Source: Patiria pectinifera
Taxonomy: Eukaryota > Echinodermata > Asteroidea > Valvatida > Asterinidae
Assembly (NCBI GenBank): GCA_029964075.1
Contig: CM057144.1
Location: forward strand, 5,355,281-5,419,280
DNA: 64,000 nt
Direction: 5' to 3'
The stretch's first letter is position 1; every line of letters starts with the position of its first letter. The position numbers were made by a program, and so were the translations under genes. Below are positions 397 to 9,720 of this stretch, in pieces. A model generated the notes under the pieces. It made no database searches and was not told the DNA's origin. It worked only from the letters and a program-made list of their open reading frames with translations.

Positions 397-403
397 GTTT
401 AGA

Positions 404-461
404 GTATAAGCACTCCCCTGAAGACGGTCAAGGCATACTGACCGGAACGTCGAGTTTATAC
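404..461 (+). ncRNA. Hammerhead-ribozyme-like motif (degenerate)
   Basis: CTGAAGA at 418-424 matches the CUGANGA core. It is followed by a 6-bp stem II (CGGTCA 425-430 with TGACCG 439-444) and GAA (445-447), then CGTC. An outer stem forms between GTATAA..ACTC (404-415) and GAGT-TTATAC (452-461). The base after GAA is C where A is expected, and two unpaired C sit next to the core, so this copy may not cleave. Penelope-like elements are known to carry hammerheads with a minimal stem III, which fits GAA(A)CGTC. Confidence 0.4.
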
Positions 462-465
462 CTCT

Positions 466-481
466 GGTTCTTTTCAGAACC
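466..481 (+). promoter_or_regulatory. Histone 3'-end type stem-loop, copy 1
   Basis: GGTTCT-TTTC-AGAACC makes a 6-bp stem with a 4-base UUUC loop. It fits the metazoan histone mRNA stem-loop pattern (GG/CC base, pyrimidine 5' arm, U-A closing pair, UUUC loop). No histone coding sequence is nearby. It lies 4 bases after the hammerhead-like fold. Confidence 0.6.
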
Positions 482-551
482 ATTCTCTTAGTTCAGAAAT
501 TATTCGCACATGGTGTTTCCGCAAACCTTTCATTATTTAAATTACATTAAA

Positions 552-6507: not shown

Positions 6508-9500
6508 ATGAAATTCAATATGGTGTCCATCCATCTTTTCCCACTTATTCTCGGGATATGTGTGCTTACAAGCTGGGGATCATCAGCTGGACTCGTATTT
6601 CAGTGCTACGGTGATGAGGACTCGGATATCACCCCTCTACTTTCAGCTGTATTGCCTGGATGGATTGAGCACTACGCCAACCATGCAAATCGCCGTTTTC
6701 ATGGCCGCCCAGTAAGTCGATACTCAAACTCAATAAGTACCTTACACGTCGACCATTGCACTGTACCATGCCAGTTATTATGGAGGATTACCCTGGGTGG
6801 TGATATTCATGCTAATCCTGGCCCTGAGGATCAAGATGGCTTGAACGCTCCCCCATCGCCTATCCCTGAAGCTACGCAACAACCAGGTACATCCAATAAA
6901 CATGTTACAGGTTTGATCTTCAATGCAAGGAGTCTCAGAAATAAACTGAACGAGCTGCGTTTGCTTCTCGAATCTACTGCACCTGACATCCTGGGTATTA
7001 CAGAAACATGGCTGACATCTGATGATATTTCAGTGGAACCTATCCTTCAACAATACGACTATATCACATTTAGACGTGATCGTAACTGTGGCCGGCGTAG
7101 AGGTGGAGGAGTTCTGATTGGTGTCAAAGCCTGCCTGAGTCCTTGCCACGTCCCTGAACTTGAACATGCTGATCTCGAAATTTCCTGCGTGGAAATTACA
7201 CTCAAAAGGAGTAAGTGGCTACTCTGTGTCGTGTACAGACCGCCTAATTCAACTGCCGACTACTGGGATAAATTCCAGACAGCTATAGATGATATACACC
7301 TGGCCACCTCAAGTCATCAGGGAGTCATTGTCACCGGTGACTTCAATGTGAACTGGGCTAACCCTGATACAACCAACATGCAAAACCTCACACGCATTGT
7401 CTCAGCTATGGGCTTAATTCAGCTCATTGATGTACCTACACGCCAATGTTCACACGAACCAGCCAATGGAACCATCATCGACCTTGTCTTTACAAATCAA
7501 CACATCCTAGTCAACAATGTATCAACTTGTCCTAATCCTGTGGGGAGTGACCACCACGCCGTTGGCTTCCACATCAAGTGCAGTAAGACTCAGCCACCAA
7601 GATCCACCATGAGACAGTTTTTATCCTTTAAACATGCCGATCTTGAACATTTTAATACATTGCTTGATTTGGCGCCATGGGACCTTTTTATGAACAGCAT
7701 GCCTGACATAAATTCTGCATGGGATGGGTTCCTAGATCTCTTTGAAGCTGCAGTACGAGATGCAATTCCACGTAAAAGACAGCGTTCAAGGAGATCTAGT
7801 CCCTGGATTGATGACCATATTAAAAGTATGGTTGTTAAAAAACGTAGGGCCTTTAAGCTTGCCAAGCGAACTGGGTCGGATGAGCACTGGCATGCCTATA
7901 AGAAAATTCGGAATGAGGTTAAAAGTGCTGTTAATATTTCCTATACCAGACATGTTGACCAGCTTTTTCGTTCTGAGAATGATAACAAAAAAAGATTCTT
8001 CTCCTTTGTTCGTAGCCAGAGGAAAACACCGTGTCCCTCTGTCATGAATAATCATGGTGAGATTGTGCATAAGCCTGAAGTGATTTCCACAATGTTTGGG
8101 GATTACTTTAACTCCGTTTTTGTTCCAGGAGATTCAGAGCTTCCTGATACTCCTCCCACGTGTCAATTCCCACTCCCACCTGTCAGTGCCACAATCAGAA
8201 GTGGCGATATTCAACGAATTATCGATCATTTGTCCAATGATAAATCCCCGGGACCTGACAATATCACGCCCCGGCTGTTAAAATCATGCTCGGCGATAAT
8301 CTCACCTATTCTTCGTGACCTGTTTTGTATATCCTTGTCACAAGGCAAGCTTCCTACTCTTTGGAAAAGGGCAAATATCACCCCAATTTTTAAGTCTGGT
8401 GACACAGGCTTGATCTGTAACTACCGTCCCATCGCATTGACTTCGGTGGTTTGTAAAATCATGGAATCCACTCTTGCCAATGCCATAACTTCCCATGTCA
8501 CAAATCATTTGCTTTTGTCATCCAAGCAGCATGGGTTTGTAAAAGGGCGATCCTGTGTGACTCAGCTTCTGAATGTTACCAACAATTGGCTAACCATTCT
8601 TGATAAACCTAGTCCACCCAAAATTGACGCCGTTTTTCTCGATTTTGCAAAGGCCTTTGATGTAATGCCTCATGACATTCTACTTCAAAAGCTAGCTTGT
8701 CAATACAATATTACTGGCAATGTTTGGAAGTGGATTAAGTCTTTCATCTCAGGTCGTTATCAGCGGGTTCTGTACAAAGGTAGCTTTTCACCCTGGCTTC
8801 CAGTATCATCAGGAGTACCCCAGGGTAGTGTCTTAGGGCCGCTTTTGTTCAACTTATTTATTAATGACCTTCCCTCATGTACTTCTTCTGCCTGTCTATT
8901 GTTTGCAGATGATACATTATTATTCAGACCTATATCTTGCCAACAGGATGAACGTATTTTACAGGAGGATCTTAACCAAATCCACAGGTGGTGTGTAGAC
9001 AACAGGATGAATCTAAATATTAAGAAAACGAAAGTTATGCGTATAACTTGTTCTAGAAATCCCGGTGTTCCTACGTATAATATTAATAATTCTCCTCTTG
9101 ATGTTGTCGCAAATTACAAATATCTGGGTGTTTTTTTAAACAGTAAATTGACTTGGAATGATCACGTGAACTATGTTGTTTCTAAGGCCAACAAAATGTT
9201 GGGCTTCATATTTAGTGTTGCCAAGGACATATCTCAGGAGGCCAAATTAGCACTCTACAAGGCCTTGGTTTTACCCATTTTAGAATATGGTCAGCCAGTG
9301 TGGCACATTCATAATAATAATCTCATTGATAAGATTGAAAGTGTTCAGCGTCGCGCTACAAGAATGATCTTAAAACAGAGAAGAATGGAAATGAACTACA
9401 CTGACCAACTGAATCTTTTAAATTGGTCCTCTCTTGTGGCACGACGCAAGTTCCTTTTAATCTCATATGTCATGAAAGCACTGTATGGCCTCATTACTTG

Positions 9501-9720
9501 TAACATTGTTAGACACGGCATTGTGGTCAACGGTCGACACACTGAAACAGTGCGGTTTTGTCATCTTAGAGCTCGCACACAAAGACTTCACGGCTCTGCA
9601 GTGAATGTGTTTGCTCGTGAATGGGACGAGCTACCGGAATCTCTGAGGTCTGGCGTCGTTGAAATGTCATTAAATAGCTGGATCAATTCCCTAAGATGCC
9701 ACCTCTGCCGACCACAGTAA
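6508..9720 (+). CDS. LINE ORF: 2A-like leader, AP endonuclease, reverse transcriptase
   Basis: 1070 codons without a stop. Residues 5-28 are hydrophobic and signal-peptide-like. Residues 98-106 read GDIHANPGP, a variant of the 2A ribosome-skipping motif, which would release a leader of about 105 residues. The endonuclease spans about 132-360 with N139, E166, Y243, D278/N280 and S347-D348-H349 visible at the expected places. RT covers about 580-860: NYRPIALTS, GVPQGSVLGPLLF and FADD at 799-802 (catalytic aspartates present). The C-terminal thumb-like part contains LEYGQPVWH. Known family function is target-primed reverse transcription. The start could be M1 or M5; M5 gives the cleaner leader. 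All catalytic residues being present suggests a young, possibly active copy. Confidence 0.9.
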   Translation: MKFNMVSIHLFPLILGICVLTSWGSSAGLVFQCYGDEDSDITPLLSAVLPGWIEHYANHANRRFHGRPVSRYSNSISTLHVDHCTVPCQLLWRITLGGDIHANPGPEDQDGLNAPPSPIPEATQQPGTSNKHVTGLIFNARSLRNKLNELRLLLESTAPDILGITETWLTSDDISVEPILQQYDYITFRRDRNCGRRRGGGVLIGVKACLSPCHVPELEHADLEISCVEITLKRSKWLLCVVYRPPNSTADYWDKFQTAIDDIHLATSSHQGVIVTGDFNVNWANPDTTNMQNLTRIVSAMGLIQLIDVPTRQCSHEPANGTIIDLVFTNQHILVNNVSTCPNPVGSDHHAVGFHIKCSKTQPPRSTMRQFLSFKHADLEHFNTLLDLAPWDLFMNSMPDINSAWDGFLDLFEAAVRDAIPRKRQRSRRSSPWIDDHIKSMVVKKRRAFKLAKRTGSDEHWHAYKKIRNEVKSAVNISYTRHVDQLFRSENDNKKRFFSFVRSQRKTPCPSVMNNHGEIVHKPEVISTMFGDYFNSVFVPGDSELPDTPPTCQFPLPPVSATIRSGDIQRIIDHLSNDKSPGPDNITPRLLKSCSAIISPILRDLFCISLSQGKLPTLWKRANITPIFKSGDTGLICNYRPIALTSVVCKIMESTLANAITSHVTNHLLLSSKQHGFVKGRSCVTQLLNVTNNWLTILDKPSPPKIDAVFLDFAKAFDVMPHDILLQKLACQYNITGNVWKWIKSFISGRYQRVLYKGSFSPWLPVSSGVPQGSVLGPLLFNLFINDLPSCTSSACLLFADDTLLFRPISCQQDERILQEDLNQIHRWCVDNRMNLNIKKTKVMRITCSRNPGVPTYNINNSPLDVVANYKYLGVFLNSKLTWNDHVNYVVSKANKMLGFIFSVAKDISQEAKLALYKALVLPILEYGQPVWHIHNNNLIDKIESVQRRATRMILKQRRMEMNYTDQLNLLNWSSLVARRKFLLISYVMKALYGLITCNIVRHGIVVNGRHTETVRFCHLRARTQRLHGSAVNVFAREWDELPESLRSGVVEMSLNSWINSLRCHLCRPQ
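6799..6825 (+). promoter_or_regulatory. 2A-like ribosome-skipping motif
   Basis: Encodes GDIHANPGP (residues 98-106), preceded by LLWRITLG. The NPGP core is intact; the usual E of D(V/I)ExNPGP is H. 2A-like sequences are documented in echinoderm and amphioxus non-LTR elements, sometimes behind signal-like leaders. Activity of the H variant is not known from sequence alone. Confidence 0.65.

Follow-up and report, generated by a model that had tools for sequence, protein, structure and literature searches.

A hammerhead-type ribozyme motif and a histone-type stem-loop occur as a pair inside a Penelope-like element (PLE), upstream of its start codon. The pair was found in a 142-bp unit near the beginning of the window (the whole stretch of DNA analysed, 64 kb in length), and this unit is a 5'-truncated solo insertion of the terminal (pseudo-LTR) part of such an element. 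Hammerheads in PLEs are already known, and the histone-type stem-loop appears to be the new part. The original prediction, made from the letters of the sequence, knew of no described family combining the two; among the papers listed in searches of the open PMC literature, judged by titles and abstract openings, none describes such a pair or a histone stem-loop in a PLE.

The insertion and its parts

The unit occupies positions 397-538 and is flanked by identical 13-mers, AAATTACATTAAA, at 384-396 and 539-551, in line with the 142-bp unit and perfect 13-bp target duplication originally proposed. Once joined, the flanks give an alignment spanning the junction with a degenerate repeat close by, at about 237-337, which scores 94 where the best of 200 shuffles scored 56; this adds a paralogous empty site and marks the unit as a true insertion. 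The features are as follows.

384-396, + strand: target site duplication, left copy AAATTACATTAAA; identical 13-mer at 539-551, and the joined flanks align to the repeat at about 237-337
397-538, + strand: PLE pseudo-LTR end, family A, 5'-truncated; identified by 44-mer copies genome-wide, a shared 3' part and the PLE frame upstream in a long copy
418-451, + strand: hammerhead-type motif with predicted cut at 451/452; supported by the family alignment with stem II 100% paired, with no Rfam hammerhead match at E<=10
418-448, + strand: parts of this motif, namely CTGAAGA (418-424), unpaired C (425), stem II (426-430 with 439-443) and GGAAC (444-448)
466-481, + strand: histone-type stem-loop GGTTCT-TTTC-AGAACC; RF00032 at 27.0 bits (gathering 34), pair counts, and gathering reached in family B by 16 of 17 loci
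489-505, + strand: place corresponding to the histone downstream element, of which family A has a degenerate version and B and the family C locus an intact one (CACAAAAGAGAT); placed by alignment of families A-D and host histone genes
508-527, + strand: block ACATGGTGTTTCCGCAAACC, kept in families A-D, 5' of the element's start codon; placed by alignment, the ATG (MQSLKSY...) coming next in the tandem array
539-551, + strand: target site duplication, right copy; same 13-mer as 384-396

Folded alone, the whole unit is no more stable than its shuffled versions (z=-0.53), and both the hairpin and stem II still appear. No match at gathering was obtained when the whole 64-kb window was compared with Rfam. 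Elsewhere in the window, positions 6508-9720 hold a 1070-codon open frame that resembles a LINE endonuclease/reverse transcriptase by eye.

The insertion belongs to a Penelope-like element

Across the 613.5 Mb of genome searched, the family A 44-mer is present at 1607 places with at most two mismatches, and its reversed control at none. Copies compared at 27 loci have the 3' part in common and an upstream extension of differing length, and in a longer copy a 303-residue open stretch lies upstream, with the motifs CYVDDTF (reverse transcriptase) and GVY..YTG (endonuclease). One array (C87) contains two complete units in tandem, with a period of 2903 bp and 9 differences between units, each with an 896-codon open stretch in which MQSLKSY... 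comes after CCACCATG; a further pseudo-LTR adjoins these units in inverted orientation. Pfam comparison of the array frame gave RVT_1 at 37.2 bits, and, in a separate scan of the C-terminal piece, GIY-YIG at 28.0 bits, above cut-off; a scan of the whole 896 residues at E<=0.1 gave RVT_1 only. In 14 of 36 rows of copies (13 by pattern, L020 by eye) the sequence extends about 35 nt more, into the frame start, which resembles the optional "tail" described for PLEs (PMC11167929).

A single frame with a reverse transcriptase and a GIY-YIG endonuclease, together with tandem and inverted units bearing pseudo-LTRs and an optional tail, identifies the element as a PLE, and the PLE connection suggested at the outset is thereby borne out. 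In the tandem array, every pseudo-LTR separates one reading frame from the start codon of the next, and the parts run ORF, hammerhead motif, a gap of 10-14 nt, histone-type stem-loop, (downstream element), conserved block and ATG; the hairpin is 69 nt before this start codon. The small separate retroelement originally envisaged does not survive this comparison, given that other copies continue upstream, a long one into the PLE reading frame.

Four pseudo-LTR families

A protein search of the genome returned 139 matches at 47-100% identity. On the 3' side of 20 divergent PLE loci, inspected by eye, 13 carry a complete hairpin, three (L051, L056, L058) form five of the six pairs and four (L053, L054, L059, L062) are without it. 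The hairpin is carried by four pseudo-LTR types, A (that of the window), B, C and D, with family C resting on one locus, L060; in L054 the hairpin is deleted. Common to A-D is the order hammerhead core, hairpin, ACATGG...CGCAAAC block and CCACCATGCAA. Family B reads GGTTCTTTTCAGAACC ACACATACTCACAAAAGAGATTT, and the first 37 bases of this sequence are present at 957 places genome-wide with up to three mismatches (reversed control 0). Family D has two hairpins, TGTTCT-TATC-AGAACA and AGTTCT-TTTC-AGAACT, and the loop is CTTC in some A copies and in the family C locus. Viral and prokaryotic contigs gave 0 matches to the hammerhead end plus hairpin.

Several local arrangements were observed along the way. 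The region C1:37839-4408289 accounts for 76 of the 100 exact matches to the family B hairpin segment among the matches listed, many as -/+ pairs about 1.7 kb apart, and 2 of those 76 recur among the matches listed for the longer exact pattern, which takes in the downstream element; this is an amplified unit of one chromosome region. Tandem hairpin modules occur at L108 (C8:7964880-7965330), with 55-bp spacing, and at L115 (C7:38819120-38819900), with spacings of 144-287 bp. Between the end of the family C PLE frame and its hammerhead and hairpin, L060 carries at 301-373 a sequence resembling a tRNA (Rfam tRNA, 40.6 bits); this is probably an inserted SINE of tRNA origin.

The hammerhead-type motif

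The CUGANGA core claimed for the unit is present as CTGAAGA at 418-424. The six-bp stem II followed by GAA is the weaker reading; comparison with related families, which have GAAAC where A has GGAAC, provides a better parse: CTGAAGA, an unpaired C, a 5-bp stem II (GGTCA/TGACC) and GGAAC. The aligned families read CUGANGA, one extra pyrimidine, stem II and GAAACGUY. The Infernal search with Rfam hammerhead models that had been recommended was negative, with no match at E<=10 in 340-600 and none at E<=1 in the loci of 13 relatives. The covariation sought in stem II was nevertheless observed in seven hand-chosen rows, where all cells pair (100%) and two of the five pairs change on both sides; the pair count of this structure was reached by 45 of 500 shuffles and its covariation score by 0 of 500.

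A core that is not conserved had been named in advance as evidence against the motif, and this applies to family A at one position. Families B-D keep GAAAC in 14 of the 15 rows caught by pattern (L054, outside the pattern, is mutated), and among 33 distinct family A rows GGAAC is found in 32 and GGAGC in one. The altered position is A13, which probably matters for catalysis.

5' ends of sampled copies at the predicted cut

If ribozyme-cut RNAs served as templates, shortened copies should start at the cut. The 5' ends of copies were sampled from among the matches listed, mostly on C1-C3. The family B sample comprised 64 rows from 58 loci, the tandem loci L108 and L115 being omitted; removal of seven of eight rows sharing one junction, and of one row from each of two duplicated pairs, left 55 rows, and in 43 of these the break falls inside the 90 nt examined. 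Eleven of these 43 start between the cut and cut+3, the 4-nt window that ranks first (P=2e-6, uniform null), and five start exactly at the cut. Without an internal deletion (L114) and a repeated junction (L110/L111) the figure is 9/41 (P=6e-5), two of the nine (L131 and L145) matching poorly. For family A, 20 rows were obtained from 19 of 20 loci (L170 gave none), and six of them fall in the top 4-nt window at the cut, four exactly (P=6e-5); eight added loci contributed none, which gives 6/28 (P=5e-4), or 5/27 (P=0.003) once one doubtful row is excluded.

Copy 5' ends at the predicted ribozyme cut, as expected from the 5' self-cleavage first suggested, are thus seen in samples of both families, in family A despite its altered core (GGAAC). 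The distance from hairpin to cut is 10 nt in B and 14 nt in A, so the pile-up tracks the cut rather than the hairpin. Family B also has pile-ups at 39, 44 and 51 nt, and several cut-site junctions adjoin another PLE copy instead of plain flank; because of both, stops at structured RNA stay a rival cause.

The histone-type stem-loop and its downstream element

The sequence GGTTCT-TTTC-AGAACC at 466-481 is of histone type, as had been claimed. In the RF00032 scan that was to check it, the window copy matches at 461-506 (E=8.3e-6; 4227 families, 261 bases) with a score of 27.0 bits, which is below the gathering threshold of 34. Family B scores higher, 16 of 17 loci (picked by exact 37-mer) lying at or above gathering at 35.2-40.5 bits and L116 falling short, and 6 of 13 loci in the first set of divergent PLE loci also reach it. 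The upper family B value of 40.5 bits may be set against 39.2-43.9 bits genome-wide, among the 75 RF00032 matches listed, host histone genes included. The same model gave a match in one of 14 prokaryotic controls, with none above cut-off.

The resemblance to host histone genes continues beyond the stem. The host H1 gene (L068) reads GGCTCTTTTCAGAGCC ACCACAAATTCACAAAAGAGATTTG, and H2A and H4 have similar strings. Family B carries CACAAAAGAGAT 9 nt after the stem, and the same 12 bases lie 10 nt after the stem in host H1. PLE and host stems are one compensated pair apart (C-G in the host, U-A in the PLE), and in family D the first stem pair is swapped to A-U and U-A. The downstream element is intact in B and the family C locus and degenerate in A and D, though the hairpin is kept there. 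The A-rich stretch found upstream of host histone stems is absent from the PLE rows.

Covariation in the stem depends on which rows are compared. Among 16 hand-chosen hairpins (13 PLE and 3 host), the share of paired cells is 95.8%, and two-sided changes occur in three of six pairs; this three-pair count is reached by 9 of 500 shuffles and the covariation score by none. For two of these three pairs, all variation lies between host and PLE or within the host rows. When the comparison is restricted to the 13 PLE rows, the paired share is 94.9%, three of six pairs are invariant and only the first changes on both sides, the pair count being reached by 375 of 500 shuffles and the covariation score by 7. 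Considering that pairing is this complete and two-sided change is confined to the first pair, the PLE stem is conserved and its covariation is thin; across the PLE families, the stem-loop covariation sought by the original prediction is present at the first pair and absent from the other five of six.

With respect to the protein and RNA that act on histone ends, the SLBP RNA-binding domain has two adjacent matches in the genome, the second with an in-frame TGA, and these are probably exons. A candidate U7 match, with 27.5 bits against a gathering score of 34 and E=0.17, does not rise above noise and provides no evidence, given that sub-cut-off matches also appear in 12 of 14 prokaryotic controls.

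Histone-type ends were also observed in other settings. A dispersed repeat at L072-L076 and L083, six of the 28 places with RF00032 E=8.8e-9 and 42.3 bits, consists of an H1 histone gene end with stem-loop, downstream element and C-rich tail. At L069, L071, L080, L081 and L082, perfect histone stem-loops and downstream elements follow sequence unlike histone genes; Pfam gave no match for the frames at L069 and L071, and L080 resembles L082 by eye. These five may represent further genes with histone-type ends that are mobile or were copied recently.

The 3' ends of copies

The sampled copies pass the hairpin and end about 57 nt on, or about 92 nt on inside the next ORF, so the hairpin seemingly does not form the 3' end of the template, and the suggestion that an SLBP-like fold guards the 3' end of the mobile RNA is not supported. 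Copies ending at the histone cleavage position were not seen. Most copies were fetched by patterns reaching beyond that position, so that pattern counts alone bear freely on such ends: exact patterns of growing length match 364, 266 and 136 places with no clear break, and on C1 from 8.8 Mb on, among the matches listed, the short, middle and longest patterns give 17, 13 and 11, a steady fall. The lack of AATAAA/ATTAAA in the array unit was considered as a sign of non-polyadenylated RNA and set aside, 60% of simulated units being without them as well. Short tandem units at L108, L173 and L182 extend from near the hammerhead cut to TTATT just beyond the downstream element and look as if template switching had occurred there.

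Proposed mechanism and alternatives

In the reading that we prefer, the ribozyme would cut array transcripts and thereby generate templates that start at the cut. The stem-loop and downstream element would have been acquired from the host histone 3'-processing signal, or have evolved to match it, and SLBP and U7 could cut array transcripts after each ORF, releasing non-polyadenylated PLE mRNAs for translation. Uncut read-through RNA would be the insertion template, since copies end about 57-92 nt past the stem-loop. This proposal is in our judgement evenly balanced between right and wrong. Histone-type processing of PLE mRNA is possible in general and doubtful for families A and D, where the downstream element has been lost and the hairpin kept. 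A stronger form of the proposal holds that a PLE lineage took over the complete host histone module (stem-loop, cleavage site and downstream element), and that transcripts would be cut twice per unit, by the hammerhead and by SLBP/U7, to yield S-phase-linked non-polyadenylated mRNAs together with uncut RNA for insertion; it is tentative, and we lean against it.

In a different reading, the hairpin would be recognised by the element's own reverse transcriptase/endonuclease close to where priming takes place, and its histone likeness would be due to convergence. The position of the hairpin, about 57-92 nt from copy ends, would suit such a site, as would its retention without a downstream element in A and D, which have long open frames, and the presence of at least two such hairpins in family D. 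Convergence would, however, have to explain why ACA and the 12-nt downstream element, at like spacing, are shared with the host by B and the family C locus, and why the stem is one compensated pair from that of the host, with loop TTTC in B as in the host (CTTC in C). Moreover, the RNA required by the anole PLE is the first 172 nt of its ORF, downstream of the hairpin position (PMC11167929). This explanation is regarded as unlikely, if still a serious one.

Alternatively, a histone 3' end may have been captured once by a PLE ancestor and carried as a passenger since, decaying in A and D. The degenerate downstream element of these two families and the scant covariation of PLE hairpins are what such decay would leave, and the dispersed H1-derived repeats with the same signal show that histone ends do get copied in this genome. 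Yet the window copy and family B share an identical 16-nt hairpin, although protein identity among one A and two B loci is 54-56% over 151-155 aligned residues, and family D has altered both sides of the first pair; the passenger reading seems improbable. It is highly implausible that the unit is, as the original prediction had it, a retrozyme-like element, small and non-autonomous and equipped with a hammerhead of its own, for although its 142 bp, single hammerhead motif and target duplication, and the almost identical first base of copies L028 and L034, would fit, it holds only that one motif, and longer copies share its 3' end and are homologous without break to the PLE pseudo-LTR. Continuity of longer copies with the PLE likewise led to rejection of assignment to the animal retrozymes (hammerhead-bounded small repeats apart from the coding element) or to SINEs.

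Comparison with known systems

The PAc element of Anolis shares with the element described here a frame with reverse transcriptase and GIY-YIG, tandem copies with pseudo-LTRs, reverse transcription that starts internally and an optional "tail" (PMC11167929). In its printed 361-nt template, read by eye, the hammerhead ends GAAACGUC and has one extra base before stem II, as here, and no histone-type stem-loop is seen in that template, unlike in the present element (PMC11167929). The PAc ORF starts at hammerhead stem II, whereas here it starts about 100 nt after the cut (PMC11167929). The PAc ribozyme reportedly required added protein for cleavage, and none of the RNA-seq reads was found to begin or finish at its cut (PMC11167929).

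Minimal PLE hammerheads, in the passages devoted to them in PMC6155905 and PMC7761336, are without helix III and lie in pseudo-LTRs, like the motif reported here, and have GAAAC where family A has GGAAC. Their in vivo activity and role are called a mystery in the corresponding passage of PMC7761336, where it is left open how the ends of PLE RNAs arise and whether minimal hammerheads are active in cells. The 5'-end pile-up bears on this in vivo role, and RNA ends may be recorded in the breakpoints of the copies, well over two thousand in number, that this genome contains.

Should the histone module be functional, a retroelement would be borrowing the histone RNA-processing machinery, with an mRNA that lacks poly(A) and is tied to DNA replication. 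Like the histone signal of RF00032, family B has a 6-bp stem, a UUUC loop, ACA and a purine-rich downstream element at like spacing; the PLE version differs from that signal in lying within a retroelement pseudo-LTR, in having no upstream A run and in being followed by a start codon.
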